Below are positions 1 to 44,817 of a stretch of 64,000 nt of DNA, piece by piece (position 1 is the stretch's first letter; every line of letters begins with the position of its first letter). This DNA comes from Onchidella celtica (taxonomy: Eukaryota; Mollusca; Gastropoda; Systellommatophora; Onchidiidae). The DNA is taken from NCBI GenBank assembly GCA_963931925.1, contig OZ007569.1, positions 25,584,524 to 25,648,523 on the forward strand, given 5' to 3'. Under the pieces are notes generated by a model. The model saw only the letters and a list, made by a program, of their open reading frames with translations, searched no databases and was not told the DNA's origin. The position numbers and the translations under genes were made by a program.

Positions 1-955
1 TTATTTGAGTGATAATCAACACCAAACTTACCCATCGTCTTGTTGCCGTTCTGCTCCATATCCGTTGATAGTGTTGAGTCACCTTTGAGATCACCTAATC
101 AGCTCTTGAAAATTCACCCGCGGACCTATCGCGACCGCATGCTTCGAGCCGAACGGCCACTTACCAGCAGCGTACGTTACCGGTTATAAACACGATGACG
201 GGTCTGCCGACTACCTGGCTCTGTAGGACAAAGACGGGCCACGTGCGTGATTCCGTTCTTTGTGTGAAGACAAAGGGGCTATTATGCAATAAAAATCACG
301 CCGCTATTTAAAAGTCCAGCGGTCAGAAATTCACGTTTCCAGCAGAAAGCATCATGTTGACGAAAGTTAACACCAAAAGTAACTTACGAAGGGCGATCTT
401 TTGACCCCGCCATACACACTCCTTGCCGAGAGAAGAGGCTAGCGCGCCATACACACATTTAGACTGTTATATCAGGATTGCTGTAGCCTGTTTACATTAA
501 GTGTCAAGGTCTCCAGTTTTACGGAATATAGCTTTGATCACAACATCCCTAAAAATGTCACACTTTTTGTTACAAAATCCCGATCCATCCACCCACATTA
601 CATTTCAAAAGAATAATTATACATAGCTTTTAGTAGACACAGAGGATGTGAATGGAAAGATACACCATTTGTGCATCATTTTTACCATTTTCTGTTGACA
701 AACAAGTATTCTGTAGGAAAACAGACGAGGGACAAATAGATTGGTATGGTGAAAACACCAGTGTACAGCAAATCAGATTTTGACCCATATATTAATTATA
801 TTACGAAACAAACATGCAAAAATACAGATGTTACATGGCAATGAACATTGTTGTTTACTTCAAGCATACTTTTAATTATAGCCATCGTCTTCCTTATCCC
901 AATTGCCACCTTCCTGCCAAATTTAAGGCCTGAAGAGTGTATAGTTTGGTCAGTT

Positions 956-1051
956 CATCATCATCATTGCCTTTCTCACCCTGGATCAGGGTATAGGCCA
1001 CCAACAAACACTTTCCATCCCTCTCTATCATGGGCCAGCCTCTTCACATTA
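956..1051 (-). mobile_element. 3'-terminal fragment of the RTE-like LINE
   Basis: About 95 bp match the 3' end of the LINE at 34831-34930, starting with the CATCATCATC repeat (the element's 3' tail on the minus strand) and running through the last codons of its ORF. Only the extreme 3' end is present, as expected for a heavily 5'-truncated insertion. No target duplication could be recognised. Confidence 0.7.
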
Positions 1052-2229
1052 CTCTACTAACCAATACATCTCAAGCACTTAGACAATGTACTAATTATAA
1101 CAACACTGTGCTAATTATAACAACACTGCTAACTTTAACTCATTATCGAGCGTGATAGGGCATAGCAGCAAATGTTTTTATACCGATCAACTACAAACTA
1201 AACCACGTGGACAGCAGTAGCGTGGTCATCGCGCATCGGCCAGGGTCAGTGTGACCCAGATATGATTCCCCATGAGTAAGGTCACTGACCGACCGGCCTG
1301 CGGGCTTTACAGGTAGTGCGTGGGGTATAGGTTAATATACTTACTTTTTCTTTGGGTTTTGTCTTCTTAATTTTTGATATGTTTGAAGGTTTGTAAGTCC
1401 TGCTAGAGCTCCTGTTGATGTCCAGTTCAGTCATGTCTGTAATTAAAATACATGTAATTGTACAACCAATTACTAGTTACTCAGACCGATTCCATTGCAA
1501 TCAAATCTGTCCTCAATAACTGAAATTCCCCCAAATGTGAAATATTCTTGTGAAAAGAGCTTAAATTCAGCTAGGCAAAATAATTAGCAAAATCTACATA
1601 AAAGATTGAAGAAATGTCTGATAGATTAATGCAAACACCTTAATCTGCTCCTTAAAATATAAGATAAAATGTTTCACATTTGACAAAGTTTATTTCGCAA
1701 AAAAGAGAAGTTTCTTGATGAAAAATGGTGATTCAATGCTGGTGTGAGTGACCTGAAATGCACGGTAAAAAAGTCTGTCGTCACAGGACGGAGATTTGGT
1801 GAATGTTCTTATAATACAAGTAATACACCCTAACAGTAATAGCAGAAAGACTTGGTTGCCTTTTGTCACCTGCACCAAGCTGAATATAATTGTTTGATGG
1901 ATATATGCAAAAGACAAACTGAAATAATTATGAAATAAATCAGCTTGTCTTTGACTGTCAAATCACAGTGTATTCTAAGACTAACACCAATAGTGAAATT
2001 ATTCACTGCTGTGCATTTCAAATTTTAGGTGAAATCAAAGGATTAGGGAGTTTTACAATAATATTATAATAAGCAACATTTTATACTCGCATGGACATCC
2101 ACATTAAATCACATTATTATTATTATATTATTATGCATGTTCCCATGTATAATGTAACAATACTTCATCACAGCATGACTTAGGCAACCAACCCCCTCCC
2201 CACCCTCAATTATTAAATTGTTATTACCT

Positions 2230-2350
2230 TAAAGCGTGTTACCTTATCTCATGAATCCCACAAACTCTGTCTCGGTAGGGAAGTGGTGTAGCCTTTATAC
2301 CAGAAATTTGTGCCAGGTATTGGCTGCCAAGTTGACTAATGTACGCCACA
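2230..2350 (-). repeat. Right (3') LTR of the basonuclin element, copy 1
   Basis: 121 bp, reading TGTGGCG...CGCTTTA on the minus strand. Its last 12 bases are missing from the left LTR, where basonuclin sequence begins instead. The ends form only an imperfect inverted repeat. Confidence 0.75.
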
Positions 2351-2365
2351 ATACTCCCCCTCTAG

Positions 2366-2908
2366 TTATGGAATAACGTAATCTTGCAGGAGTCGTTTGG
2401 GAAAGCGGACTTGTCGTCCTCGCTGTGTGACGTTTTGCTGCTGTTGAATGTTTTTGTCGGTACATATTGTACTTGATGCTGGTTGTTGTGGGTGGCCACT
2501 AGCGTGCGTGAAACGTTTGGTTTCCGCTAGGGGTTGCTGTCGCTCTGTGTAAGCGGCTTTGAGTCGGTCAATGGAAACGAACTCAGCGCGTCCATTTCGA
2601 GAAAGTTTATAACATTTCTTATTTCTCGATAGTACGAGAAACGGACCGTCGTAGGTGGGTTGAAGAGGTTTTCTTACAGCGTCGTGCCTTACGTAGACAT
2701 GTGTTGCTTGCGGCAGGCTGTAGTCAATATGACTGTTGCGCTGTTGTACTCTAGTGGGGGTGGCAGTGATGCGGTTCATGTGTTGTCGCAGTCTGCTAAC
2801 ATATGATGTTGGGTCTTCAACTGGTTCTGGAGATGTCTGAACGAAATCTCCGGGGACTCTCAGTGTAGAACCATAAACCAACTCTGCTGCAGAACATTGT
2901 AGGTCTTC
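2366..2908 (-). pseudogene. Ty3/gypsy integrase C-terminal part, copy 1
   Basis: Continues the frame of the basonuclin fusion after the single TAG at 2909. Recognisable motifs are CSAAELVYGSTLRVPG, then a C-terminal block with THVYVRHDAVRKPLQPTYDGPF and FVSIDRLKAAY (GPY/F-like integrase tail). The polypurine tract and right LTR follow the TAA stop within 15 bp, as expected for the 3' end of a gypsy pol. The zinc-binding and DDE catalytic parts are absent, so no integrase activity can be encoded. Confidence 0.85.
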
Positions 2909-4672
2909 CTATAGGGTGGTTCGGATTCCAAGTAGGACGAGTGGGAGAGTTTCGGTCCATTTGTCAGTTTCATGGCACTTGAGTGCTCCTTTGCTATTAC
3001 TTCTTTGGGTTCCATCTACTTTTTCTAGAGATGTAATATTTACCTTGCCAGTATCTGGTGTGCTTTCTCCATTACATGCTATAGCAGTGTTGCTGCCATG
3101 TCCAGGTGATGGCTTCCCTGTGGGATCTTTGTCATCAGAATTGTCATCACTAGCCATCCGACTCTCTCCTTGTTGTGCACATCTCGTGGGAGCTGCATTC
3201 TTCCTTCTGTTTCCCCCTCTCATTCCACCTTCATTCTTCAGACTCGTTTCATCAGCTTCCACCTCCTCATCTCTTTTATCTTCTTTGTCATCCGCCACAG
3301 CATCTAGATCTATCTCCAGCTTCATCTCTCCATCATACTTTTTAGTTAGATCACAGGGCTCTTCTTCTGAGCTGTTAGCTGAGGATATTTTGCTCAGATC
3401 AGTAGGTAGTTCCTCGTCTAGTTTAACCCTTTTCTCTGGGGGTGGCAGGAACGGAAACTGGGCAGACATCTCAATGAAGAAGCTGGAGTCTGGCCTTATA
3501 ATACGTGGTGTATCCAGAATTGGAAGAACTTGTGTGGGGATGGCTTGGGCATTGGTGGGGTTTGTGATGGACATCGTAGGGGTGGACGAGGCTACAGGAG
3601 TCACAGAACCATTGCTGGATGAGAGGTCCAATTCCTCAGATACATCATGTTCATCTTTCCTCTTCTGAGGCATGTGAAGTTTGGGATTGGGGTTGGCACT
3701 ATGCCTGTTCCTGCTTCTCCTTGAGCTGAACATCATATTACAACCTTCCACTGTGCATTTGTGCATCTCCTTGAGGTGGACAGCGCTGTAATGGATCTTG
3801 AGAGCACCTTTATCACAGAATGTTTTATTACAAGCCGTGCACAGCACTCTCTTTTTACCATTAGGTCCTACAAAAGTGCTGCCGAAATTTGCTGAGGGTG
3901 TCCACTGGCGTTTGATGGGGTTGGTTGACTTTCGCATATGCTGTTTATTCTTCTTTTCTCCATCTGATGGTGAGTCAGGGTTATCTTTATTGGAGTAGTC
4001 CAGAACTTCTCCATCTTCCTCAGATCCTGATGCATATTGATCACCACCATCCACTTCATCCAATCCTTGAGGTTGGTGTTGCTGTGGCTGTAGGACCTGA
4101 TGTGACGGTGATGTTGTGACTGAGGAGACCACGGTAGGTGTGGTGCTCAGGTTCTTTGGGCTGTCACATAGGGGAGATCGGCGGGCTGCTGACTTGTCCA
4201 AACTCCCAGGACTAAGGCTGATGGCAGGACTTGCTTGTTCTTTACGGGCATCAAATGGCTGCATAACCTGTAGGCGATTGAGGGGTGGGGTAGCCAGTGG
4301 GGTAGTAGAAGTGGTTGGGGTCTGGGGCAGGGTTACAGTTCTTGCATCTCTGCTGGGGCTGTAGGTGGGTGAGATGAGGGGAGAGGTTATCATCCGATTG
4401 CCTGGTGGGATGAAAGGAACAGCTCTGGTCCCAAACAGCTGACGTGTTGATTCATAAGATTTGATATAATTTTGCATAGACAAGTTACTGCGCTCGATGA
4501 ACTTCTTGATATCCGATTCTGCCCGTGAGGTTTGTTTGACCAAAACTTCATGTCGATCTTTGGTATCCTGGAGTCTAATCTCCTGAGCTATGGCTTTGGT
4601 TTCTCCGAACCGCAAGAACTGCTGCAGCACGACCATCTCTTCCTCTCGAGTGGCCACACACCATTTGTCCAA
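2909..4672 (-). CDS. Basonuclin-like zinc-finger segment fused to gypsy integrase, copy 1
   Basis: 587-codon open frame. Residues 2-25 (DKWCVATREEE...LQQFLRFGETK) match the conserved N-terminal block of basonuclins. Residues ~275-335 hold the typical paired C2H2 finger: CTAC...HYSAVH, then CTVEGCNMMFSS..SRNRHSANPNP. Basonuclins are nuclear zinc-finger regulators of epithelial and germ cells. Acidic, Ser/Thr-Pro-rich tracts and a PTDLS motif (CtBP-binding consensus) follow. From about residue 560 (near 2992) the protein becomes integrase: GALKCHETDKW..LPLVLLGIRTT. It ends at TAG 2909-2911, where related integrases continue; the same frame then stays open to 2366. The frame opens with TTG; the first ATG is codon 13, and a stop lies just upstream in the LTR. 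Expression would depend on the LTR TATA box. Confidence 0.85.
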   Translation of the reverse strand: MDKWCVATREEEMVVLQQFLRFGETKAIAQEIRLQDTKDRHEVLVKQTSRAESDIKKFIERSNLSMQNYIKSYESTRQLFGTRAVPFIPPGNRMITSPLISPTYSPSRDARTVTLPQTPTTSTTPLATPPLNRLQVMQPFDARKEQASPAISLSPGSLDKSAARRSPLCDSPKNLSTTPTVVSSVTTSPSHQVLQPQQHQPQGLDEVDGGDQYASGSEEDGEVLDYSNKDNPDSPSDGEKKNKQHMRKSTNPIKRQWTPSANFGSTFVGPNGKKRVLCTACNKTFCDKGALKIHYSAVHLKEMHKCTVEGCNMMFSSRRSRNRHSANPNPKLHMPQKRKDEHDVSEELDLSSSNGSVTPVASSTPTMSITNPTNAQAIPTQVLPILDTPRIIRPDSSFFIEMSAQFPFLPPPEKRVKLDEELPTDLSKISSANSSEEEPCDLTKKYDGEMKLEIDLDAVADDKEDKRDEEVEADETSLKNEGGMRGGNRRKNAAPTRCAQQGESRMASDDNSDDKDPTGKPSPGHGSNTAIACNGESTPDTGKVNITSLEKVDGTQRSNSKGALKCHETDKWTETLPLVLLGIRTTL

Positions 4673-4689
4673 GACACGCCCAGAGCTAT

Positions 4690-4798
4690 CCTTATCTCAT
4701 GAATCCCACAAACTCTGTCTCGGTAGGGAAGTGGTGTAGCCTTTATACCATAAATTTGTGCCAGGTATTGGCTGCCAAGTTGACTAATGTACGCCACA
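4690..4798 (-). repeat. Left (5') LTR of the basonuclin element, copy 1
   Basis: 109 bp matching 2242-2350 with one substitution (CATAAA against CAGAAA on the plus strand). It lacks the final ~12 bp of the other LTR, and no primer-binding site follows; basonuclin sequence starts immediately. Confidence 0.75.
4741..4747 (-). promoter_or_regulatory. TATA box in the left LTR
   Basis: TATAAAG on the minus strand inside the LTR, correctly placed and oriented to drive the basonuclin-integrase frame starting about 70 bp downstream. The same motif is in the right LTR (2293-2299). Confidence 0.5.
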
Positions 4799-4800
4799 AC

Positions 4801-5873
4801 CTGTTTCATCTGAATTTGAGTCTGAGAATAGAGATGGTGACCGTGGTTTCCCCTTGCCTGAATTTTCTAGAGAGGACTCAGATATAGCAGACAAACCAAG
4901 GTCTTTTGTCATATTCCTGAAGGGGGGTGGGGGGGGCAGATTCATCAGCTTGTAGTGAACGATAAGTATCTCTTGGTGGGGTGATGTTCCTTGGTGCTTT
5001 GGATTTCTTCAGCTGTTTTAGTTCATCAGTTTTACCGGGGGGGGGGGGGGGGGGGGGGGGGGTTTTCGCAGTTGAATATTGGAGAAGTGATAGAGTCAAA
5101 ACCAAAAACAAGAATCCTCCATTTTCTGTGGAGATTCTTTGGTAAATTCCTCTGTCTTTTGCAGCAAAGCGGTCTGTAGCGGAATTGGGCTTAATATATA
5201 TGTACTTTTCTTGTTTACGAAATATGAACCAAAAGCTGAAGTAAATTTCCCTTGTTCTTTCTTAATATTCTGCAGATTTCTCTTCCTCTTTTTACCATTC
5301 GTCGGTTCAAAGTCATCCATTTCAGGTGATGAATCTACTAGGTCTGAATTTTGGCGACTTTTCTTTGATACTGGAGACAATCCAATCCCAGAGTCTCCTT
5401 GAGAGCTATAACTATAAGAAAGATGAGTGGATATGCCAGGAAGACGCTCAGGTTGTAAGCTGCGTTTTCTTGCAGATCTACGAAACTGAGGGGTAACAAA
5501 ACTCTTGTGGAGTTGTGCTGTCATAAGGTTTGAGTGGGAGGATGGGAGTCACCTCTGGAGTTACAGATAGTGAGTCTGGTGTGCTGAGGTCTTGTTGTTT
5601 TGGCTTTGAAACTCTTTCATTGAGAAGGACTGGGGTACTTGCAAGATTGTCTTTCCCCTTTCCTGTCTTTGAGTGACATGCTGCTTTAGGGTGCCTTTTT
5701 GCTTGTTTCGATCTGCTTCTTTTCTTTGGAGCTGAGCCAGATTTCTTGCCAGTCTTTTGCCTGACATCTGGCACATCTTCAATCATGTCAATTTCATAGG
5801 GATCACTGCAATTTTGCTCAGGGCTTGTGTTGGCTGTGACTGATTCTTCATCTGCATCATAAGCAGAATCTGC
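4801..5873 (-). pseudogene. Large exon of the sororin-like gene, copy 1
   Basis: Acceptor CCAG before 5873; original donor ACAG/GT at 4801/4800. The upstream part encodes ADSAYDADEES and a Lys/Arg-rich stretch. The frame then changes between about 5470 and 5550: either a frameshift or a 67-nt microintron whose ends would be GTGACT and CCCCTCAG, because joining these restores one frame (VTPE to FRRSARKR). A 26-G run (5037-5062, coding poly-Pro on the minus strand) and an A insertion near 5105 disturb the downstream frame compared with copy 3. The exon now ends at the retroelement rather than at a normal intron. Confidence 0.55.
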
Positions 5874-7545
5874 CTGGAAAAGAGAGATTGGACTTTGAAT
5901 GAATAGCTTTTGAACAAGTACAGCTTGCATGTGCCCCACCAATTTCAAAGTAATCTGTTATCATGGCTGGCTTCCTTAATTCCTTACTTCTGACAATTTA
6001 TTTAGCAAAGCACCACTTTTGACGGAAAACATTTTAAGTTAATTCTTTGGCAATGGCATAGTGTGCGCATGTTTTCTTTAAAGATCGTTAAGACTTTTCC
6101 ATCAATGACTGTTTTCGATTAAAATCAGGGTTATTAAAAGACTATTAAAAATTAAATGTCAATAGATTCCTACCAAACCACTGTCCATTTGTTTTGGAGT
6201 AATGGATCTCTTCTGACTCTGAATCTGAAAGGAACAAAGAAGTAAAAATTGTACATACTTGCAAATACATAATTTCACATTACATGAAAAAGATATCAAA
6301 CATGCTTACTCTGAAGAAACCGAAACAGACTGAAAAATAACAAGGTGTTTTCTTTTAAAATTTATATGTCAAACGACCAACAAACCCTATAATCATACGC
6401 TCTTTACTTCAGATTTCTTTCTGGACTTTCACACTTCCCACAATTCATAGAAAATTCCAGCAGACAATTTCAGTCAAATTTCATTAAATTGCATAGTGCC
6501 AAAAGTTCTGCGTTGAAAATAGGAAATGTTGAATGAGACTTCATTCGACCTGCTGATGATACTTGGTGCCGTGAAAAATTCTACGTACCCTAATTCTTTC
6601 AGACAGACGTCTTGGTAATTGATCTTGATTGTCAGATTCACTGGACCGGTTACCTATAGACATAATGATGAATGACATTAATTAAACAACATTGTAATAG
6701 AAACAATCTATATTTTTCTAATGACTGTACTGACCTTACTGTATTGTATCTAAATAGCACGGCAGTCCCATAAGAGTCATTAAAACAAGAATTTTTTGTG
6801 TGCCTATCACCGATATATCGGTTCATCAGCTGGTCACCCATGTGCCAATTGCCGATGTATCGGTGTACAAAAGAATGCTAGGCTATTTTGTTTTTGGGAT
6901 GAAAGAAAGTCAACTTTCTATTAATATAGATGATGCTGTAGTTAGTTTTCTTTCATCTCCCCCCTTTTCCTGTATTGGCAAGCTTGGAAAAATTCATGGC
7001 ACACAAAGAGTTCATCAGAATCAGACTATTATATGACACTAGATGACCAACCGGGCCTTGCCCAGAATAAACAATAATGTGCTCCCCCCCTCCCCCCTCT
7101 CTCATATAATAAAAGTAATAAACCACAGTCTTGCTTCAGAACTCATGCGCACCACACAACAATACGCACCAAACTGAACGCTTGATACGGGTTACGGTAC
7201 TATATATGGGTCAGAATCTGATTTGCTGTACACTTTTTGTGACACAATGATGAATTTTAAAAATTGATATCCATGCTTGAAAACCAATACATCTCATTCT
7301 GTAAACAATTGTCTTTCATACTCTGTAGCTGCCTTTTAGCATTCCCTTTGGGTTTCAACAATATCACTCATTCTTGATTGACAGGATGTATGTTACATAA
7401 ACACCGTCACAACACAAAAAACAACTCAAGCACTTGTAATTAGAAGGCCAGGAAACTAATTAAGCAAGTTCATTTCATACTGTCAGAAGAACAATCTTGT
7501 GAGTCAATAATCATTTGTGACATTCAAAATGCCTCTCAGATTTGC

Positions 7546-9248
7546 GATCGATTACTCCTGAAACCAGCTTGCTCCTCCCGAAGTTTTGGGTCTGTTGCAT
7601 TCTGTATTCGCTTGAGAATAATCCGATTGAAAACCTTTCCTGGGATGGAGAGAAGTGTGATTCCTCTGTAGTTACTACAATTGCTGAGGTCCCCTTTTTT
7701 TGGAAGCTTCACGAGGTGTCCTTCCTTCCAGTCCTTTGGAAACTTGCCTCCGATCCAAATCCTCCAGAATAGTGAGTGCAGACCCTCTGCAGCCCCAGCA
7801 GCATCTGCCTTCAGCGCCTCTGGTGGGATCTGATCTGGTCCAGCTGCCTTGCCCCGATTTAACTGCTTTATGGCATCATTAATCTCTGCTTTAGTCGGAG
7901 GGGCGCAACTGATCGGTAAATCATTTCCTGCGGGTAGAATGTCGGGTGGGTTGCTTGGTGGAGGTCTGTTCAAGAGGCTGTTAAAATGTTCTATCCATCT
8001 TTTTGCCTGAGCTTCCTTTCCAAAAATAGCCTTCCTGTTGTAATCCTTGACAGGAACTTCAGGTTTTCCATATTTTCCAGTAAGAGTCTTTGTAGTCTGG
8101 TAGAGGATCCTCATGTGTCCTCCTGTTGCTGCCTTCTCTGCTAACATTCCTATGAACTCCTCTTTGTCTTTTTTAATTGATTTTTTGACCTCTTTAGCTG
8201 ATGCTCGGTACTCTTCCTGGTTACCAACTCTTGAGCTTCTTGTACGACTTGCATTTACCTGTTCTTTTAGGTCTCTTCTTATCCTTATCAAGTCCAGTGA
8301 TTTTTGACTGATCCATTCCTTGTGTTCCACTTTCTTTTCCCCAAGAACATCCCGACATGTCGATGTAAATACTCCTTTTACCTTAGCCCAGTGAGTCTCC
8401 AAATCTACTGTCTCTTCGAGGTCAACAAGAGGTTTGAATCTATTCCTCAGTGTCAGCTGGAACTCTTCCTTCTTGTCTCCATCCAGAAGGCTCACTTGAA
8501 ACTTTCTCCTCTTTGTTCCTGCTCTGGTACCTTGTTTCTTGAGGCGGAGTTTTGAGTCTTGCCAGCAGCATGTGATGGTCAGATCCAACATCAGCTCCTC
8601 TCTGCACTATGACATCCTCCAGTGAGCGTCTGAATCGTCGGGTGATGCAAAAGTGGTCAATCTGGTTTTCAGTTACCGTACTCCATCCGGTGAAATCCAA
8701 GTGGCCTTATGGATCCTCTTGTGTGGGAGTACTGAACCTCCAATCACATAGCTGTTAAATGCGCAGAAACTTGCAAACCGCTCTCCATTCTCATTCATTT
8801 GTCCCAAACCATTGCAGCCCATAATGTCCTCATACCCTGCATTGGCGTCTCCCATTATAATCACATCTTTTCTTGGCAATGTGTCAACTATTTCCTGAAG
8901 CTGGTTGTAGAAATCGTCCTTGTCCTCATCGGTTGCTTCATTTGTTGGGGCGTATATCTGCACAATGTTCATGTTGATGTTCTTGTTCTTTGTAGTAAAT
9001 GATGCCAATATAATTCTCCTTCCGTAGGGTTCCCATCCCCTCAGTGACCTTTGGGCGTGCTTGCTCAAGATGATCGCTACTCCTTCTGTGTGCTTTTTGT
9101 CCTCCCTTCCAGAATACAAAATCTTTTCCCCAGAATTAAGTTGTTTCAGTCCGGACTGTATCCAGCGGGTCTCACCAACTCCAAGTATGTGCAGTCTGTA
9201 TCGCCTCATCTCCATTGTAACCTGGGCACTCTTTCCTGCTTCATACAT
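7546..9248 (-). pseudogene. LINE endonuclease-reverse transcriptase, broken (copy 1)
   Basis: Endonuclease motifs in order: WNVRSMYEAGK (start at 9248 is the M within it, since a stop lies a few codons upstream), GVGETRW, YAPTNE, IMGDANA, TWISPDG, NQIDHF and GSDHHML. Reverse-transcriptase motifs begin with PDQIPPEALK and NYRGITLLS. Compared with 34998-37460 this copy lacks 21 bp after GDANA (losing the conserved KIG), has a 4-bp insertion near 8690 and one extra base near 8562, each frameshift splitting the frame, and ends before the YADD-type catalytic motif. It cannot make an active enzyme. Confidence 0.85.
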
Positions 9249-9600
9249 GGAGCGGACATTCCACGATGTTTGATGAAGGAGCAGTCAGGCCAGTGGAGTC
9301 CTTTCGGCTTTGTCCATTGTCCTTCATTGAATCTACAGGTGCAGATGCTCCCCCTTCTCCCAAGATAAAAGACTGATTTAAAGTATTTGCTTGTGTTTCT
9401 GTAACTGGTTTATTTTTACAGGGTGGGTAGTTGGCCCACCGCCAACTGGCTCTTCTCGGGAGACCAGGACCTTTGCACCTTTAGTCGCCTCTTACGACAC
9501 GCAGTATCACGTCAGATGTATTCTTTGCTGTCCCTCTTCTGCAAGAGGGCCCCGCATCTGCACGGGCGGCCCAGGACTATTACTTTCAGTAAAAGTACTG
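7546..9600 (-). mobile_element. RTE-like LINE, 3'-truncated copy (copy 1)
   Basis: Minus-strand LINE within an intron of the sororin-like gene. It has 5' leader sequence (about 9250-9600), the apurinic-type endonuclease and the start of reverse transcriptase, and stops abruptly at 7546 where the copy at 34831-37482 continues. Loss of the 3' part is unusual for a LINE, which normally loses the 5' end, so a later deletion or recombination removed it. The outer 5' limit is approximate. Confidence 0.75.
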
Positions 9601-10239
9601 TGGTTTGAAAACCAAAGTTAAAACATCATTGTGGCCTGTAAAAAATCTCCTTTATCTCAGCTGCATATTCTGCAATCTCAACCTTTTCTCTGTGGCCTCT
9701 GACTAGCATGAACATCCTGCTACTTTAAACTCTTTAGAAAAGTCACTGAGGATTTGAGATCTAAAAATAATGGTATATTTAAAACACTTAAACATTCGCA
9801 AATCAAAGCATGAACTGATATTTTACCTGGGCTGAAGCTAAATTATCATTGGTGTGGTGTAATGAATGAAACTCATCAGCCATAGCCATGTTTGCAGATC
9901 TGCTTATTAACTGTGACTCAATAACAATTCATTGCATTATTACTGCGGTAACATGTCTGAGATGAAATTATCATTTGATAATATCAAATATTTTACATAG
10001 ATTGCATGCGTCTAAACAAAAAAGTTTCCCGTCCTTGCAGATCTAGATGTCCCAGCAACATGGAATGGCAATACATTATTACAGACATGAGTTTCCATAA
10101 TATGTATAGCCTACTATTATAAAGCTTTTTTATAAATAATTCTTCCATGATTACTGAAAGTTTCTAATAGCTGCAGAGTATAGGCTACACAGATGGACGC
10201 TTAAGCCTAGATAAACAATGAAGATCAGAAGAAGGAAAC

Positions 10240-12079: not shown

Positions 12080-13034
12080 TTATTTGAGTGATAATCAACA
12101 CCAAACTTACCCATCGTCTTGTTGCCGTTCTGCTCCATATCCGTTGATAGTGTTGAGTCACCTTTGAGATCACCTAATCAGCTCTTGAAAATTCACCCGC
12201 GGACCTATCGCGACCGCATGCTTCGAGCCGAACGGCCACTTACCAGCAGCGTACGTTACCGGTTATAAACACGATGACGGGTCTGCCGACTACCTGGCTC
12301 TGTAGGACAAAGACGGGCCACGTGCGTGATTCCGTTCTTTGTGTGAAGACAAAGGGGCTATTATGCAATAAAAATCACGCCGCTATTTAAAAGTCCAGCG
12401 GTCAGAAATTCACGTTTCCAGCAGAAAGCATCATGTTGACGAAAGTTAACACCAAAAGTAACTTACGAAGGGCGATCTTTTGACCCCGCCATACACACTC
12501 CTTGCCGAGAGAAGAGGCTAGCGCGCCATACACACATTTAGACTGTTATATCAGGATTGCTGTAGCCTGTTTACATTAAGTGTCAAGGTCTCCAGTTTTA
12601 CGGAATATAGCTTTGATCACAACATCCCTAAAAATGTCACACTTTTTGTTACAAAATCCCGATCCATCCACCCACATTACATTTCAAAAGAATAATTATA
12701 CATAGCTTTTAGTAGACACAGAGGATGTGAATGGAAAGATACACCATTTGTGCATCATTTTTACCATTTTCTGTTGACAAACAAGTATTCTGTAGGAAAA
12801 CAGACGAGGGACAAATAGATTGGTATGGTGAAAACACCAGTGTACAGCAAATCAGATTTTGACCCATATATTAATTATATTACGAAACAAACATGCAAAA
12901 ATACAGATGTTACATGGCAATGAACATTGTTGTTTACTTCAAGCATACTTTTAATTATAGCCATCGTCTTCCTTATCCCAATTGCCACCTTCCTGCCAAA
13001 TTTAAGGCCTGAAGAGTGTATAGTTTGGTCAGTT

Positions 13035-13130
13035 CATCATCATCATTGCCTTTCTCACCCTGGATCAGGGTATAGGCCACCAACAAACACTTTCCATCCC
13101 TCTCTATCATGGGCCAGCCTCTTCACATTA
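13035..13130 (-). mobile_element. 3'-terminal fragment of the RTE-like LINE (copy 2)
   Basis: Duplicate of the fragment at 956-1051, carried by the 12,079-bp tandem duplication. Confidence 0.7.
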
Positions 13131-14444
13131 CTCTACTAACCAATACATCTCAAGCACTTAGACAATGTACTAATTATAACAACACTGTGCTAATTATAAC
13201 AACACTGCTAACTTTAACTCATTATCGAGCGTGATAGGGCATAGCAGCAAATGTTTTTATACCGATCAACTACAAACTAAACCACGTGGACAGCAGTAGC
13301 GTGGTCATCGCGCATCGGCCAGGGTCAGTGTGACCCAGATATGATTCCCCATGAGTAAGGTCACTGACCGACCGGCCTGCGGGCTTTACAGGTAGTGCGT
13401 GGGGTATAGGTTAATATACTTACTTTTTCTTTGGGTTTTGTCTTCTTAATTTTTGATATGTTTGAAGGTTTGTAAGTCCTGCTAGAGCTCCTGTTGATGT
13501 CCAGTTCAGTCATGTCTGTAATTAAAATACATGTAATTGTACAACCAATTACTAGTTACTCAGACCGATTCCATTGCAATCAAATCTGTCCTCAATAACT
13601 GAAATTCCCCCAAATGTGAAATATTCTTGTGAAAAGAGCTTAAATTCAGCTAGGCAAAATAATTAGCAAAATCTACATAAAAGATTGAAGAAATGTCTGA
13701 TAGATTAATGCAAACACCTTAATCTGCTCCTTAAAATATAAGATAAAATGTTTCACATTTGACAAAGTTTATTTCGCAAAAAAGAGAAGTTTCTTGATGA
13801 AAAATGGTGATTCAATGCTGGTGTGAGTGACCTGAAATGCACGGTAAAAAAGTCTGTCGTCACAGGACGGAGATTTGGTGAATGTTCTTATAATACAAGT
13901 AATACACCCTAACAGTAATAGCAGAAAGACTTGGTTGCCTTTTGTCACCTGCACCAAGCTGAATATAATTGTTTGATGGATATATGCAAAAGACAAACTG
14001 AAATAATTATGAAATAAATCAGCTTGTCTTTGACTGTCAAATCACAGTGTATTCTAAGACTAACACCAATAGTGAAATTATTCACTGCTGTGCATTTCAA
14101 ATTTTAGGTGAAATCAAAGGATTAGGGAGTTTTACAATAATATTATAATAAGCAACATTTTATACTCGCATGGACATCCACATTAAATCACATTATTATT
14201 ATTATATTATTATGCATGTTCCCATGTATAATGTAACAATACTTCATCACAGCATGACTTAGGCAACCAACCCCCTCCCCACCCTCAATTATTAAATTGT
14301 TATTACCTTAAAGCGTGTTACCTTATCTCATGAATCCCACAAACTCTGTCTCGGTAGGGAAGTGGTGTAGCCTTTATACCAGAAATTTGTGCCAGGTATT
14401 GGCTGCCAAGTTGACTAATGTACGCCACAATACTCCCCCTCTAG

Positions 14445-14987
14445 TTATGGAATAACGTAATCTTGCAGGAGTCGTTTGGGAAAGCGGACTTGTCGTCCTC
14501 GCTGTGTGACGTTTTGCTGCTGTTGAATGTTTTTGTCGGTACATATTGTACTTGATGCTGGTTGTTGTGGGTGGCCACTAGCGTGCGTGAAACGTTTGGT
14601 TTCCGCTAGGGGTTGCTGTCGCTCTGTGTAAGCGGCTTTGAGTCGGTCAATGGAAACGAACTCAGCGCGTCCATTTCGAGAAAGTTTATAACATTTCTTA
14701 TTTCTCGATAGTACGAGAAACGGACCGTCGTAGGTGGGTTGAAGAGGTTTTCTTACAGCGTCGTGCCTTACGTAGACATGTGTTGCTTGCGGCAGGCTGT
14801 AGTCAATATGACTGTTGCGCTGTTGTACTCTAGTGGGGGTGGCAGTGATGCGGTTCATGTGTTGTCGCAGTCTGCTAACATATGATGTTGGGTCTTCAAC
14901 TGGTTCTGGAGATGTCTGAACGAAATCTCCGGGGACTCTCAGTGTAGAACCATAAACCAACTCTGCTGCAGAACATTGTAGGTCTTC
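14445..14987 (-). pseudogene. Ty3/gypsy integrase C-terminal part, copy 2
   Basis: Identical to 2366-2908; same frame as the fusion beyond the TAG, followed by polypurine tract and right LTR. Confidence 0.85.
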
Positions 14988-16751
14988 CTATAGGGTGGTT
15001 CGGATTCCAAGTAGGACGAGTGGGAGAGTTTCGGTCCATTTGTCAGTTTCATGGCACTTGAGTGCTCCTTTGCTATTACTTCTTTGGGTTCCATCTACTT
15101 TTTCTAGAGATGTAATATTTACCTTGCCAGTATCTGGTGTGCTTTCTCCATTACATGCTATAGCAGTGTTGCTGCCATGTCCAGGTGATGGCTTCCCTGT
15201 GGGATCTTTGTCATCAGAATTGTCATCACTAGCCATCCGACTCTCTCCTTGTTGTGCACATCTCGTGGGAGCTGCATTCTTCCTTCTGTTTCCCCCTCTC
15301 ATTCCACCTTCATTCTTCAGACTCGTTTCATCAGCTTCCACCTCCTCATCTCTTTTATCTTCTTTGTCATCCGCCACAGCATCTAGATCTATCTCCAGCT
15401 TCATCTCTCCATCATACTTTTTAGTTAGATCACAGGGCTCTTCTTCTGAGCTGTTAGCTGAGGATATTTTGCTCAGATCAGTAGGTAGTTCCTCGTCTAG
15501 TTTAACCCTTTTCTCTGGGGGTGGCAGGAACGGAAACTGGGCAGACATCTCAATGAAGAAGCTGGAGTCTGGCCTTATAATACGTGGTGTATCCAGAATT
15601 GGAAGAACTTGTGTGGGGATGGCTTGGGCATTGGTGGGGTTTGTGATGGACATCGTAGGGGTGGACGAGGCTACAGGAGTCACAGAACCATTGCTGGATG
15701 AGAGGTCCAATTCCTCAGATACATCATGTTCATCTTTCCTCTTCTGAGGCATGTGAAGTTTGGGATTGGGGTTGGCACTATGCCTGTTCCTGCTTCTCCT
15801 TGAGCTGAACATCATATTACAACCTTCCACTGTGCATTTGTGCATCTCCTTGAGGTGGACAGCGCTGTAATGGATCTTGAGAGCACCTTTATCACAGAAT
15901 GTTTTATTACAAGCCGTGCACAGCACTCTCTTTTTACCATTAGGTCCTACAAAAGTGCTGCCGAAATTTGCTGAGGGTGTCCACTGGCGTTTGATGGGGT
16001 TGGTTGACTTTCGCATATGCTGTTTATTCTTCTTTTCTCCATCTGATGGTGAGTCAGGGTTATCTTTATTGGAGTAGTCCAGAACTTCTCCATCTTCCTC
16101 AGATCCTGATGCATATTGATCACCACCATCCACTTCATCCAATCCTTGAGGTTGGTGTTGCTGTGGCTGTAGGACCTGATGTGACGGTGATGTTGTGACT
16201 GAGGAGACCACGGTAGGTGTGGTGCTCAGGTTCTTTGGGCTGTCACATAGGGGAGATCGGCGGGCTGCTGACTTGTCCAAACTCCCAGGACTAAGGCTGA
16301 TGGCAGGACTTGCTTGTTCTTTACGGGCATCAAATGGCTGCATAACCTGTAGGCGATTGAGGGGTGGGGTAGCCAGTGGGGTAGTAGAAGTGGTTGGGGT
16401 CTGGGGCAGGGTTACAGTTCTTGCATCTCTGCTGGGGCTGTAGGTGGGTGAGATGAGGGGAGAGGTTATCATCCGATTGCCTGGTGGGATGAAAGGAACA
16501 GCTCTGGTCCCAAACAGCTGACGTGTTGATTCATAAGATTTGATATAATTTTGCATAGACAAGTTACTGCGCTCGATGAACTTCTTGATATCCGATTCTG
16601 CCCGTGAGGTTTGTTTGACCAAAACTTCATGTCGATCTTTGGTATCCTGGAGTCTAATCTCCTGAGCTATGGCTTTGGTTTCTCCGAACCGCAAGAACTG
16701 CTGCAGCACGACCATCTCTTCCTCTCGAGTGGCCACACACCATTTGTCCAA
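14988..16751 (-). CDS. Basonuclin-like/integrase fusion, copy 2
   Basis: Translates identically to 2909-4672: basonuclin N-terminal block, paired C2H2 finger, PTDLS motif, then integrase from about residue 560, ending at the same TAG. Confidence 0.85.
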   Translation of the reverse strand: MDKWCVATREEEMVVLQQFLRFGETKAIAQEIRLQDTKDRHEVLVKQTSRAESDIKKFIERSNLSMQNYIKSYESTRQLFGTRAVPFIPPGNRMITSPLISPTYSPSRDARTVTLPQTPTTSTTPLATPPLNRLQVMQPFDARKEQASPAISLSPGSLDKSAARRSPLCDSPKNLSTTPTVVSSVTTSPSHQVLQPQQHQPQGLDEVDGGDQYASGSEEDGEVLDYSNKDNPDSPSDGEKKNKQHMRKSTNPIKRQWTPSANFGSTFVGPNGKKRVLCTACNKTFCDKGALKIHYSAVHLKEMHKCTVEGCNMMFSSRRSRNRHSANPNPKLHMPQKRKDEHDVSEELDLSSSNGSVTPVASSTPTMSITNPTNAQAIPTQVLPILDTPRIIRPDSSFFIEMSAQFPFLPPPEKRVKLDEELPTDLSKISSANSSEEEPCDLTKKYDGEMKLEIDLDAVADDKEDKRDEEVEADETSLKNEGGMRGGNRRKNAAPTRCAQQGESRMASDDNSDDKDPTGKPSPGHGSNTAIACNGESTPDTGKVNITSLEKVDGTQRSNSKGALKCHETDKWTETLPLVLLGIRTTL

Positions 16752-19624
16752 GACACGCCCAGAGCTATCCTTATCTCATGAATCCCACAAACTCTGTCTC
16801 GGTAGGGAAGTGGTGTAGCCTTTATACCATAAATTTGTGCCAGGTATTGGCTGCCAAGTTGACTAATGTACGCCACAACCTGTTTCATCTGAATTTGAGT
16901 CTGAGAATAGAGATGGTGACCGTGGTTTCCCCTTGCCTGAATTTTCTAGAGAGGACTCAGATATAGCAGACAAACCAAGGTCTTTTGTCATATTCCTGAA
17001 GGGGGGTGGGGGGGGCAGATTCATCAGCTTGTAGTGAACGATAAGTATCTCTTGGTGGGGTGATGTTCCTTGGTGCTTTGGATTTCTTCAGCTGTTTTAG
17101 TTCATCAGTTTTACCGGGGGGGGGGGGGGGGGGGGGGGGGGTTTTCGCAGTTGAATATTGGAGAAGTGATAGAGTCAAAACCAAAAACAAGAATCCTCCA
17201 TTTTCTGTGGAGATTCTTTGGTAAATTCCTCTGTCTTTTGCAGCAAAGCGGTCTGTAGCGGAATTGGGCTTAATATATATGTACTTTTCTTGTTTACGAA
17301 ATATGAACCAAAAGCTGAAGTAAATTTCCCTTGTTCTTTCTTAATATTCTGCAGATTTCTCTTCCTCTTTTTACCATTCGTCGGTTCAAAGTCATCCATT
17401 TCAGGTGATGAATCTACTAGGTCTGAATTTTGGCGACTTTTCTTTGATACTGGAGACAATCCAATCCCAGAGTCTCCTTGAGAGCTATAACTATAAGAAA
17501 GATGAGTGGATATGCCAGGAAGACGCTCAGGTTGTAAGCTGCGTTTTCTTGCAGATCTACGAAACTGAGGGGTAACAAAACTCTTGTGGAGTTGTGCTGT
17601 CATAAGGTTTGAGTGGGAGGATGGGAGTCACCTCTGGAGTTACAGATAGTGAGTCTGGTGTGCTGAGGTCTTGTTGTTTTGGCTTTGAAACTCTTTCATT
17701 GAGAAGGACTGGGGTACTTGCAAGATTGTCTTTCCCCTTTCCTGTCTTTGAGTGACATGCTGCTTTAGGGTGCCTTTTTGCTTGTTTCGATCTGCTTCTT
17801 TTCTTTGGAGCTGAGCCAGATTTCTTGCCAGTCTTTTGCCTGACATCTGGCACATCTTCAATCATGTCAATTTCATAGGGATCACTGCAATTTTGCTCAG
17901 GGCTTGTGTTGGCTGTGACTGATTCTTCATCTGCATCATAAGCAGAATCTGCCTGGAAAAGAGAGATTGGACTTTGAATGAATAGCTTTTGAACAAGTAC
18001 AGCTTGCATGTGCCCCACCAATTTCAAAGTAATCTGTTATCATGGCTGGCTTCCTTAATTCCTTACTTCTGACAATTTATTTAGCAAAGCACCACTTTTG
18101 ACGGAAAACATTTTAAGTTAATTCTTTGGCAATGGCATAGTGTGCGCATGTTTTCTTTAAAGATCGTTAAGACTTTTCCATCAATGACTGTTTTCGATTA
18201 AAATCAGGGTTATTAAAAGACTATTAAAAATTAAATGTCAATAGATTCCTACCAAACCACTGTCCATTTGTTTTGGAGTAATGGATCTCTTCTGACTCTG
18301 AATCTGAAAGGAACAAAGAAGTAAAAATTGTACATACTTGCAAATACATAATTTCACATTACATGAAAAAGATATCAAACATGCTTACTCTGAAGAAACC
18401 GAAACAGACTGAAAAATAACAAGGTGTTTTCTTTTAAAATTTATATGTCAAACGACCAACAAACCCTATAATCATACGCTCTTTACTTCAGATTTCTTTC
18501 TGGACTTTCACACTTCCCACAATTCATAGAAAATTCCAGCAGACAATTTCAGTCAAATTTCATTAAATTGCATAGTGCCAAAAGTTCTGCGTTGAAAATA
18601 GGAAATGTTGAATGAGACTTCATTCGACCTGCTGATGATACTTGGTGCCGTGAAAAATTCTACGTACCCTAATTCTTTCAGACAGACGTCTTGGTAATTG
18701 ATCTTGATTGTCAGATTCACTGGACCGGTTACCTATAGACATAATGATGAATGACATTAATTAAACAACATTGTAATAGAAACAATCTATATTTTTCTAA
18801 TGACTGTACTGACCTTACTGTATTGTATCTAAATAGCACGGCAGTCCCATAAGAGTCATTAAAACAAGAATTTTTTGTGTGCCTATCACCGATATATCGG
18901 TTCATCAGCTGGTCACCCATGTGCCAATTGCCGATGTATCGGTGTACAAAAGAATGCTAGGCTATTTTGTTTTTGGGATGAAAGAAAGTCAACTTTCTAT
19001 TAATATAGATGATGCTGTAGTTAGTTTTCTTTCATCTCCCCCCTTTTCCTGTATTGGCAAGCTTGGAAAAATTCATGGCACACAAAGAGTTCATCAGAAT
19101 CAGACTATTATATGACACTAGATGACCAACCGGGCCTTGCCCAGAATAAACAATAATGTGCTCCCCCCCTCCCCCCTCTCTCATATAATAAAAGTAATAA
19201 ACCACAGTCTTGCTTCAGAACTCATGCGCACCACACAACAATACGCACCAAACTGAACGCTTGATACGGGTTACGGTACTATATATGGGTCAGAATCTGA
19301 TTTGCTGTACACTTTTTGTGACACAATGATGAATTTTAAAAATTGATATCCATGCTTGAAAACCAATACATCTCATTCTGTAAACAATTGTCTTTCATAC
19401 TCTGTAGCTGCCTTTTAGCATTCCCTTTGGGTTTCAACAATATCACTCATTCTTGATTGACAGGATGTATGTTACATAAACACCGTCACAACACAAAAAA
19501 CAACTCAAGCACTTGTAATTAGAAGGCCAGGAAACTAATTAAGCAAGTTCATTTCATACTGTCAGAAGAACAATCTTGTGAGTCAATAATCATTTGTGAC
19601 ATTCAAAATGCCTCTCAGATTTGC

Positions 19625-21679
19625 GATCGATTACTCCTGAAACCAGCTTGCTCCTCCCGAAGTTTTGGGTCTGTTGCATTCTGTATTCGCTTGAGAATAA
19701 TCCGATTGAAAACCTTTCCTGGGATGGAGAGAAGTGTGATTCCTCTGTAGTTACTACAATTGCTGAGGTCCCCTTTTTTTGGAAGCTTCACGAGGTGTCC
19801 TTCCTTCCAGTCCTTTGGAAACTTGCCTCCGATCCAAATCCTCCAGAATAGTGAGTGCAGACCCTCTGCAGCCCCAGCAGCATCTGCCTTCAGCGCCTCT
19901 GGTGGGATCTGATCTGGTCCAGCTGCCTTGCCCCGATTTAACTGCTTTATGGCATCATTAATCTCTGCTTTAGTCGGAGGGGCGCAACTGATCGGTAAAT
20001 CATTTCCTGCGGGTAGAATGTCGGGTGGGTTGCTTGGTGGAGGTCTGTTCAAGAGGCTGTTAAAATGTTCTATCCATCTTTTTGCCTGAGCTTCCTTTCC
20101 AAAAATAGCCTTCCTGTTGTAATCCTTGACAGGAACTTCAGGTTTTCCATATTTTCCAGTAAGAGTCTTTGTAGTCTGGTAGAGGATCCTCATGTGTCCT
20201 CCTGTTGCTGCCTTCTCTGCTAACATTCCTATGAACTCCTCTTTGTCTTTTTTAATTGATTTTTTGACCTCTTTAGCTGATGCTCGGTACTCTTCCTGGT
20301 TACCAACTCTTGAGCTTCTTGTACGACTTGCATTTACCTGTTCTTTTAGGTCTCTTCTTATCCTTATCAAGTCCAGTGATTTTTGACTGATCCATTCCTT
20401 GTGTTCCACTTTCTTTTCCCCAAGAACATCCCGACATGTCGATGTAAATACTCCTTTTACCTTAGCCCAGTGAGTCTCCAAATCTACTGTTTCTTCGAGG
20501 TCAACAAGAGGTTTGAATCTATTCCTCAGTGTCAGCTGGAACTCTTCCTTCTTGTCTCCATCCAGAAGGCTCACTTGAAACTTTCTCCTCTTTGTTCCTG
20601 CTCTGGTACCTTGTTTCTTGAGGCGGAGTTTTGAGTCTTGCCAGCAGCATGTGATGGTCAGATCCAACATCAGCTCCTCTCTGCACTATGACATCCTCCA
20701 GTGAGCGTCTGAATCGTCGGGTGATGCAAAAGTGGTCAATCTGGTTTTCAGTTACCGTACTCCATCCGGTGAAATCCAAGTGGCCTTATGGATCCTCTTG
20801 TGTGGGAGTACTGAACCTCCAATCACATAGCTGTTAAATGCGCAGAAACTTGCAAACCGCTCTCCATTCTCATTCATTTGTCCCAAACCATTGCAGCCCA
20901 TAATGTCCTCATACCCTGCATTGGCGTCTCCCATTATAATCACATCTTTTCTTGGCAATGTGTCAACTATTTCCTGAAGCTGGTTGTAGAAATCGTCCTT
21001 GTCCTCATCGGTTGCTTCATTTGTTGGGGCGTATATCTGCACAATGTTCATGTTGATGTTCTTGTTCTTTGTAGTAAATGATGCCAATATAATTCTCCTT
21101 CCGTAGGGTTCCCATCCCCTCAGTGACCTTTGGGCGTGCTTGCTCAAGATGATCGCTACTCCTTCTGTGTGCTTTTTGTCCTCCCTTCCAGAATACAAAA
21201 TCTTTTCCCCAGAATTAAGTTGTTTCAGTCCGGACTGTATCCAGCGGGTCTCACCAACTCCAAGTATGTGCAGTCTGTATCGCCTCATCTCCATTGTAAC
21301 CTGGGCACTCTTTCCTGCTTCATACATGGAGCGGACATTCCACGATGTTTGATGAAGGAGCAGTCAGGCCAGTGGAGTCCTTTCGGCTTTGTCCATTGTC
21401 CTTCATTGAATCTACAGGTGCAGATGCTCCCCCTTCTCCCAAGATAAAAGACTGATTTAAAGTATTTGCTTGTGTTTCTGTAACTGGTTTATTTTTACAG
21501 GGTGGGTAGTTGGCCCACCGCCAACTGGCTCTTCTCGGGAGACCAGGACCTTTGCACCTTTAGTCGCCTCTTACGACACGCAGTATCACGTCAGATGTAT
21601 TCTTTGCTGTCCCTCTTCTGCAAGAGGGCCCCGCATCTGCACGGGCGGCCCAGGACTATTACTTTCAGTAAAAGTACTG
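19625..21679 (-). mobile_element. RTE-like LINE, 3'-truncated copy (copy 2)
   Basis: Duplicate of 7546-9600 with the same deletions and frameshifts (broken frame 19625-21327). The only difference noticed between the two units, T at 20491, falls inside it. Confidence 0.75.
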
Positions 21680-22201
21680 TGGTTTGAAAACCAAAGTTAA
21701 AACATCATTGTGGCCTGTAAAAAATCTCCTTTATCTCAGCTGCATATTCTGCAATCTCAACCTTTTCTCTGTGGCCTCTGACTAGCATGAACATCCTGCT
21801 ACTTTAAACTCTTTAGAAAAGTCACTGAGGATTTGAGATCTAAAAATAATGGTATATTTAAAACACTTAAACATTCGCAAATCAAAGCATGAACTGATAT
21901 TTTACCTGGGCTGAAGCTAAATTATCATTGGTGTGGTGTAATGAATGAAACTCATCAGCCATAGCCATGTTTGCAGATCTGCTTATTAACTGTGACTCAA
22001 TAACAATTCATTGCATTATTACTGCGGTAACATGTCTGAGATGAAATTATCATTTGATAATATCAAATATTTTACATAGATTGCATGCGTCTAAACAAAA
22101 AAGTTTCCCGTCCTTGCAGATCTAGATGTCCCAGCAACATGGAATGGCAATACATTATTACAGACATGAGTTTCCATAATATGTATAGCCTACTATTATA
22201 G

Positions 22202-37482: not shown

Positions 37483-37493
37483 TATCTTTCTTT

Positions 37494-43213: not shown

Positions 43214-43309
43214 CATCATCATCATTGCCTTTCTCACCCTGGATCAGGGTATAGGCCACCAACAAACACTTCCCATCCCTCTCTATCATGGGCCAGCCTC
43301 TTCACATTA
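43214..43309 (-). mobile_element. 3'-terminal fragment of the RTE-like LINE (copy 3)
   Basis: Matches 956-1051 at the same place in the third copy, so this small insertion predates the split of the three copies. Confidence 0.7.
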
Positions 43310-43602
43310 CTCTACTAACCAATACATCTTAAGCGCTTAGACAATGTACTAATTATAACAACACTGTGCTAATTATAACAACACTGCTAACTTTAACTCA
43401 TTATCGAGCGTGATAGGGCATAGCAGCAAATGTTTTTATACCGATCAACTACAAACTAAACCACGTGGACAGCAGTAGCGTGGTCATCGCGCATCGGCCA
43501 GGGTCAGTGTGACCCAGATATGATTCCCCATGAGTTAGGTCACTGACCGACCGGCCTGCGGGCTTTACAGGTAGTGCGTGGGGTATAGGTTAATATACTT
43601 AC

Positions 43603-44817
43603 TTTTTCTTTGGGTTTTGCCTTCTTAATTTTTGATATGTTTGAAGGTTTGTAAGTCCTGCTAGAGCTCCTGTTGATGTCCAGTTCAGTCATGTCTGTAA
43701 TTAAAATACATGTAATTGTACAACCAATTACTAGTTACTCAGACCGATTCCATTGCAATCAAATCTGTCCTCAATAACTGAAATTCCCCCAAATGTGAAA
43801 TATTCTTGTGAAAAGAGCTTAAATTCAGCTAGGCAAAATAATTAGCAAAATCTACATAAAAGATTGAAGAAATGTCTGATAGATTAATGCAAACACCTTA
43901 ATCTGCTCCTTAAAATATAAGATAAAATGTTTCACATTTGACAAAGTTTATTTCGCAAAAAAGAGAAGTTTCTTGATGAAAAATGGTGATTCAATGCTGG
44001 TGTGAGTGACCTGAAATGCACGGTAAAAAAGTCTGTCGTCACAGGACGGAGATTTGGTGAATGTTCTTATAATACAAGTAATACACCCTAACAGTAATAG
44101 CAGAAAGACTTGGTTGCCTTTTGTCACCTGCACCAAGCTGAATAGAATTGTTTGATAGATATATGCAAAAGACAAACTGAAATAATTATGAAATAAATCA
44201 GCTTGTCTTTGACTGTCAAATCACAGTGTATTCTAAGACTAACACCAATAGTGAAATTATTCACTGCTGTGCATTTCAAATTTTAGGTGAAATCAAAGGA
44301 TTAGGGAGTTTTACAATAATATTATAATAAGCAACATTTTATACTCGCATGGACATCCACATTAAATCACATTATTATTATTATATTATTATGCATGTTC
44401 CCATGTATAATGTAACAATACTTCATCACAGCATGACTTAGGCAACCAACCCCCTCCCCACCTTCAATTATTAAATTGTTATTACCTGTTTCATCTGAAT
44501 ATGAGTCTGAGAATAGAGATGGTGACCGTGGTTTCCCCTTGCCTGAATTTTCTAGAGAGGGCTCAGATATAGCAGACAAACCAAGGTCTTTTGTCATATT
44601 CCGGGGGGGGGGGGGGTTCTGATTCATTAGCTTGTAGTGAACGATAAGTATCTCTTGGTGGGGTGATGTTCCTTGGTGCTTTGGATTTCTTCAGCTGTTT
44701 TAGTTTATCAGTTTTACGGGGGGGGGGGGGGGGGGGAGTTTTCGCAGTTGAATATTGGAGAAGTGATAGAGTCAAAACCAAAACAAGAATCCTCCATTTT
44801 CTGTGGAGATTCTTTGG
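43603..44817 (-). pseudogene. Sororin-like gene, copy 3, 5'-truncated fragment
   Basis: Two exons: 44486-44817 (cut at the left end of homology) and 43603-43694, with an uninterrupted donor ACAG/GTAATAAC. Here the frame reads SCFGFDS, then KAPRNITPPRDTYRSL and LGLSAISEPSLENSG without the A insertion that breaks copies 1 and 2. This is the best view of the original reading frame. Upstream exons are absent, so the gene is a fragment. Confidence 0.55.

Follow-up and report, generated by a model that had tools for sequence, protein, structure and literature searches.

Structure of the insertion

A stretch of 64,000 nucleotides (nt) from the mollusc Onchidella celtica (GenBank assembly GCA_963931925.1, contig OZ007569.1, forward-strand positions 25,584,524 to 25,648,523; hereafter the window) carries a retroelement in which the greater part of one exon of the zinc-finger gene basonuclin lies between two long terminal repeats (LTRs). 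Positions 2230-4798 of the window are a single 2,569-bp insertion flanked by a 4-bp target duplication (ACCT). Read on the minus strand, it consists of a 5' LTR (108-109 bp), the basonuclin segment (1,698 nt), the end of a Ty3/gypsy integrase, a polypurine tract and a 3' LTR (121 bp), and it is missing gag, protease, reverse transcriptase, RNase H, most of the integrase and the primer-binding site. The insertion is a real and recent capture of a host gene by an LTR retrotransposon, and we consider it highly probable (about 0.83) that this defective Ty3/gypsy retrotransposon arose when a host exon was transduced in the manner of retroviruses. Its features are the following.

4799..4802, no strand: target-site duplication ACCT, first copy
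4691..4798, minus: 5' LTR, nt 1-108 of 121, cut at an internal splice donor; nt 109 (G) is common to the exon
4742..4747, minus: TATA box of the 5' LTR, TATAAA, LTR nt 52-57 (motif only)
2993..4690, minus: captured basonuclin segment, 1,698 nt, 566 codons, from the native exon's first base to the exon interior
2992..2993, minus: 3' join in the open frame, 2-nt microhomology CA
2366..2992, minus: only the C-terminal portion of a Ty3/gypsy integrase; TAG at 2909-2911
2351..2363, minus: polypurine tract adjoining the 3' LTR, AGAGGGGGAGTAT (by inspection)
2230..2350, minus: complete 3' LTR, 121 bp, TGTGGC...GCTTTA
2226..2229, no strand: target-site duplication ACCT, second copy
44484..44487, no strand: empty target site, ACCT once, in the insertion-free paralog
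14309..16877, minus: second whole-insertion copy, inside a 12,079-bp tandem repeat

The original prediction, which was made from the letters of the window, had given the element bounds of 2230..4798, a captured basonuclin segment between two LTRs, an in-frame fusion to gypsy integrase at about 2992 and a basonuclin orientation in sense with the LTR TATA box. The bounds are correct to the base, as judged from the letters of the occupied and empty sites. The segment differs from the native exon at 4 of 1,698 nt and the LTRs from each other at one of 109 shared positions (2230-2350 against 4690-4798), the fusion lies at 2992/2993 with the frame continuing for 27 codons, and the TATA box begins at LTR nt 52, in sense with basonuclin. 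The open reading frame (ORF) at 2909-4696 of the minus strand is thus basonuclin for most of its length, followed by 27 integrase codons and a TAG stop at 2909-2911. The assignment to the Ty3/gypsy type of LTR retrotransposon is read from the sequence of the LTRs, the 4-bp duplication, the gypsy-type integrase and the polypurine tract. Behind the 5' LTR, the insert lacks a primer-binding site, and it is therefore a defective derivative rather than an autonomous member of its family, a copy unable to prime reverse transcription of itself by the usual means.

A private T (ATG where the family has ACG) is present in the two LTRs of the insert, and exact 24-nt searches for it returned only the three tandem copies of the insert, with their 5' and 3' LTRs. 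The two LTRs hence derive from one reverse-transcription event. Two unrelated LTR remnants, considered as another origin of the flanks, are ruled out by the same shared T. The private T also creates a new AUG (ATG AGA TAA) in the leader just before the 5' join, at 4698-4700 of the minus strand (LTR nt 99-101). The first AUG after the TATA box opens a two-codon frame and the second an out-of-frame one of 29 codons; the first in-frame AUG of basonuclin is at insert nt 163. The predicted product would include the first pair of fingers, and its last 27 residues would come from integrase.

Target site and tandem copies

Genome searches were made in the 1.14-Gb assembly of 43 contigs, where the window is G000:C3:25,584,524-25,648,523. 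The occupied site reads ..TTATT-ACCT, insertion 2230-4798, ACCT-GTTTC.., and the empty paralog ..TTATT-ACCT-GTTTC. This diverged paralog lies at 41264-44817 without the insertion, with flank identities of 97.7% and 94.5%, and has ACCT once where the occupied sites have it twice. An empty-site query matched five places in the genome, of which two were uninterrupted (the window's own paralog, at 100%, and one elsewhere on this contig, at 93%) and three were split at query positions 105-108, which are the 4-bp duplication.

Window positions 1-10121 are repeated at 12080-22200 with one difference, and a further copy of the region lies directly upstream of the window. The 12,079-bp unit is present in at least three repeats, each with the chimera, at 99.99-100% identity over the compared stretches; it reflects either a tandem duplication of very recent date or a duplication made in the assembly. 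Because the three copies of the insertion belong to near-identical tandem units, they count as one event and not three, and there is no sign that the chimera has moved again, all three full copies listed being in the tandem array. On the minus strand, the target AGGT resembles a splice donor, that of an exon belonging to a different gene (..GATGAAACAG/GTAATAAC, with the open frame ..SPSLFSDSYSDETG), and the insertion may for this reason sit exactly on that donor.

The captured exon and its parent gene

The three best protein matches of the ORF at 2909-4696 are 69-73% identical over 92-95% of its length, with Candidula unifasciata at 73%. The native exon was located by protein match at C1:96,393,262-96,394,995 (minus strand), on another contig than the insertion and within an open frame of 954 codons. 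Between the captured 1,698 nt and this exon there are four substitutions and no insertions or deletions; three of the substitutions are replacing (I to R, A to T, K to T) and one is silent, which is too few for judging selection. All 147 columns that are invariant in eight aligned orthologs are kept in the captured segment, and in a leave-one-out control each ortholog dropped in turn gave 1 to 10 departures. A tblastn search with the Candidula protein placed two earlier basonuclin exons at C1:96,411,828-96,412,061 and 96,452,716-96,452,820, and the intron ahead of the native big exon is ~17 kb long.

In Pfam, the basonuclin ORF had only a C2H2 match below the cut-off and the integrase end had no match, and a PDB search gave no match. 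A region search using the join residues returned 10 candidates, none at E <= 0.01. A scan of IMG/VR with the ORF found four stretches that fit a pattern, none of which encoded a relative, and a scan with an LTR word found none.

The parent element family

The family of longer elements from which the rest of the insertion derives is present in the same genome. Two of its copies, L007 and L008, are 99.1% identical over 764 nt to the integrase end and 3' LTR (insert nt 1806-2569). A protein search with the ORF's integrase tail, in which 74 of 100 candidates were scored, matched at least 48 further places in the genome, with open frames of up to 1,056 codons. A genome search for the LTR and the join, proposed with the original prediction, recovered the structure three times in the assembly and at least 40 matches to the LTR, a lower bound since 40 of 110 candidates were scored. 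Thirty-two LTR tails were listed from 30 loci (three of the insert's own and 29 of the family), and every one of them reads AAGGTAACACGCTTTA. The full LTR end GTAACACGCTTTA is found in the 3' LTR of the insert and in all 29 other family tails listed; one further LTR, L059, ends ATAACACGCTTTA. Directly after 14 of the 29 family tails listed comes the primer-binding region ATTGGTGACC. Three of the four LTR pairs compared were identical and one had two differing positions, and the family is young.

The primer-binding site of the family, TGGTGACCCCGACGTGATC, fits what we take to be the 3' end of the transfer RNA (tRNA) for tryptophan, tRNA-Trp. Its sole exact genomic match (L058, G000:C15:10161357-10161376) is a fragment in which neither ARAGORN nor Rfam calls a tRNA. 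In L058, CCA stands behind the 3' half of a sequence like tRNA-Trp, and the match could be a reverse-transcribed primer fragment.

The two joins

The main point that goes beyond the original prediction is that the 5' LTR is cut at a splice donor and that the primer-binding site is missing. The 3' LTR ends ..GATAAG/GTAACACGCTTTA, the 5' LTR reads ..GATAAG/GATAGCTCTGGG and the native gene ..CTATTTTTATTTTTATTGTTTACAG/GATAGCTCTGGG. From these letters it follows that the LTR was cut at a splice-donor sequence (AAG/GTAACA) and continues directly with the base that opens the native exon (TTTACAG/GATAGC; native acceptor ..TTATTTTTATTGTTTACAG/GATAGC), and the 5' LTR is 12-13 nt short because of this cut. 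Of six GT sites in the LTR, only ..GATAAG/GTAACA reaches seven of nine matches to the donor consensus, a level attained at 281 of 127,984 window positions on both strands. Among the 2,754 joins that could form between a family LTR and basonuclin exons 2 and 3 with 3 nt or more of microhomology, a single one runs from donor to exon start; when the LTR is extended by 400 nt of leader, such joins make up two of 12,514.

The exon edge is conserved in relatives. Among 120 orthologs listed, out of 1,191 with E <= 0.001, the exon-boundary motif is found in 82 and the remaining 38 are without it. The 82 comprise 46 with the spliced form GYILQ, 32 with other residues ending in Q and four with neither. 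Read-through of an intron with a CAG acceptor would give the 32 Q-ending variants, nine of which are one repeated sequence and a few of which offer only 2-4 residues. The upstream exon in O. celtica itself ends ..CTGCAG/GTGAGT.

The 3' join falls within the native exon at 2992/2993, in frame, where the native gene reads ..AGTAATAGCA/TTGAGC, the element L007 ..CTCA/AAGGAGC and the insert ..AGTAATAGCA/AAGGAGC. The microhomology is 2 nt (CA), as for non-homologous recombination. The original prediction had likened the insertion to the capture of oncogenes by retroviruses, and with a spliced-type 5' join and a non-homologous 3' join the comparison is apt. It had also suggested a check for missing introns, which cannot decide the matter: the aligned segment falls within one native exon (the 954-codon frame), so that intron absence is uninformative and was dropped as a sign of passage through RNA. 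It is the exon-edge 5' join that speaks for a spliced RNA instead.

A model of the capture and its alternatives

The LTR-flanked unit, the target duplication, both joins, the parent gene and the parent element family are all read directly in one genome. From them we infer promoter use, splicing, co-packaging and an order of strand transfers, and the route was probably the splicing route of transforming retroviruses. A copy of the element would once have stood ahead of the big basonuclin exon. Its LTR would have started a transcript that was spliced from the U5 donor to the basonuclin acceptor and so lost the primer-binding site together with the final 13 nt of U5, and the spliced RNA would have been co-packaged with normal element RNA. 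Reverse transcription would then have started on the normal RNA, with U3, the polypurine tract and the integrase end being copied, before the reverse transcriptase changed templates within basonuclin and followed the spliced RNA as far as the 5' end of that RNA. For the second strand transfer, the shared R-U5 would have served in place of the missing primer-binding site, through a pairing of perhaps 30 nt if transcription starts ~30 nt past the TATA box. Finally, integrase would have inserted the product elsewhere, and a tandem duplication of the new site would have come later. The absence of the 13 nt and of the primer-binding site fits a template from which both were spliced out, and the full end of the 3' LTR fits a minus-strand start on normal element RNA.

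Several observations weigh against transduction of a spliced RNA. Upstream of the native exon, ~113 kb were read (to C1:96,507,999, including the 17-kb intron) without finding any match to the LTR of more than 16 nt, and the presumed source insertion is thus absent from that stretch of the assembly; as no element was found beside the parent gene, the transduction route is one that we infer and do not see. No second spliced capture was found in the genome: AAGG without a following T matched only the three insert copies, and AAG without a following G matched a single LTR, which is ordinary apart from this point change (both searches were exact and would miss diverged LTRs). The LTR donor is without the consensus G at +5 and T at +6. 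The 5' join, moreover, has a 3-nt microhomology (AGG) with both the mature messenger RNA (mRNA) and the unspliced gene, so that a plain template switch would yield the same product. An alternative built on this is LTR-mediated retroposition with two template switches, the first at CA, where reverse transcriptase left element RNA for ordinary basonuclin mRNA, and the second at AGG, where it returned to the element's U5, in which there was no spliced chimera and the exon edge is coincidental. Chimeric retrocopies joined at microsimilarities have been described in animals (PMC5408686), and the short microhomology at both joins and the lack of a source LTR in the 113 kb upstream of the exon fit two such switches. 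What makes this explanation unlikely, if still credible, is that the 5' join meets the LTR's one good donor and the first base of the exon at once, a single case among the 2,754.

A fusion at the DNA level might also have come first, either through two element copies flanking the exon or through a deletion joining the exon to integrase, with an LTR-to-LTR transcript then spliced at the U5 donor and reverse transcribed whole. The spliced 5' join is common to this proposal and to transduction, which differ only in the origin of the 3' join, and for that reason the odds of the two overlap. The product would be the same, and the 2-nt CA fits end joining as well as it fits template switching. The native locus shows no such rearrangement in the assembly, however, its 954-codon exon being intact and no LTR having been found upstream, and more steps are required; we regard the DNA-level origin of the 3' join as distinctly unlikely. 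The original prediction had named an ordinary exon set beside a gypsy remnant by misassembly as what would refute it. Part of the 99.99-100% identical 12-kb repeat could indeed be an assembly duplication, but the three copies, the exact target duplication, the two uninterrupted paralogs, the native gene on another contig and the private T in both LTRs contradict misassembly or a chance neighbourhood of basonuclin exon and gypsy remnant, which is very improbable. Open frames of the long interspersed nuclear element (LINE) type lie nearby, and a LINE-mediated processed pseudogene might have chanced to land near LTRs; yet the 3' end of the segment lies within the coding region, joined to integrase with no poly(A) there, and the segment is flanked by LTRs with a 4-bp duplication, which leaves this origin scarcely believable.

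Comparison with known systems

The steps by which retroelements pick up host genes have mostly been deduced from old or selected cases. Here, parent exon, element family, donor, acceptor, joins, target and empty site are found in one genome and almost unmutated, so that the model is readable base by base and testable in relatives from the same population. A cheap genome-wide screen for LTRs cut at an internal splice donor suggests itself.

Retroviruses appear to need a chimeric transcript for the capture of oncogenes, and transcripts started in the LTR may splice from viral or cryptic donors to the acceptor of the gene (PMC515179). Spliced RNAs of the human immunodeficiency virus are packaged and reverse transcribed (PMC1868081). 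The insertion resembles retroviral oncogene transduction in its spliced-type 5' join to a host exon, its non-homologous 3' join within the exon and the loss of replication genes. It differs in that the vehicle is a Ty3/gypsy retrotransposon, which is not infectious, and the passenger a developmental zinc-finger gene, without a known phenotype. Unlike in retroviral transduction, the primer-binding site has been lost, since the donor lies inside the LTR ahead of it.

Host-gene capture by LTR elements is already known from maize Bs1, animal retrocopies and crocodilian endogenous retroviruses. LTR-mediated retroposition in animals, reported by Tan and coworkers and cited here from a review, proceeds by template switching in reverse transcription and likewise leaves host RNA between LTR-element sequences, but its switch points are at microsimilarities, whereas the 5' join described here is at a donor and an exon edge (PMC5408686). 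Bs1 is also an LTR retrotransposon with host gene segments, none of which is a full-length ORF; it is a plant element with segments of three host genes, and the likeness is one of gene content (PMC13317346). Crocodilian endogenous retroviruses with KIT-ligand and nectin3 are likewise LTR elements that captured host mRNA in the germ line of an animal; they differ as endogenous retroviruses whose copies are reportedly under purifying selection, in contrast to one event in a tandem array only (PMC4299795). A possible likeness to CsRn1-like Ty3/gypsy elements lies in the family's putative tRNA-Trp-type primer-binding site (PMC2582038, whose supplement legend names tRNA-Trp for PwRn1 and mosquito relatives).

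What is new is a join of the spliced type, placed at an exon edge, in a gypsy retrotransposon whose donor lies within the LTR; no other case of it was found among the open-licence papers listed, and these papers, judged from titles and the beginnings of abstracts, gave no description of basonuclin capture by a retrotransposon. We give even odds to the broader proposition that a non-infectious Ty3/gypsy element went through every step of retroviral transduction in the germ line of an animal, with LTR promoter, U5 donor, host acceptor, co-packaging and completion through R-U5 without a primer-binding site on the captured strand. The family would then come with an exon trap of its own, and the way in which retroviruses gain oncogenes would be independent of infectiousness.

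Other features of the window

The window also contains a gypsy-type element at 51181-55798 (plus strand), with a partial copy at 45910-50054, in which integrase stands ahead of reverse transcriptase and RNase H. The domains found in the ORF of the former are H2C2 (438-496), rve (514-609), RVT_1 (930-1088) and RNase H (1180-1281), and an integrase-first order is the unusual one described for Gmr1 elements (PMC6238403, PMC8220671). At 5096-5957 (minus strand), two overlapping open frames resemble one frameshifted gene, and a long run of G lies near 5037-5062; the break in the frame may be a sequencing or assembly fault. Open frames for a LINE-type endonuclease and reverse transcriptase are present at 8673-9284 and 34998-37502 (minus strand), and the frame at 7536-8606 (minus strand) resembles, by appearance, a part of this kind of frame.

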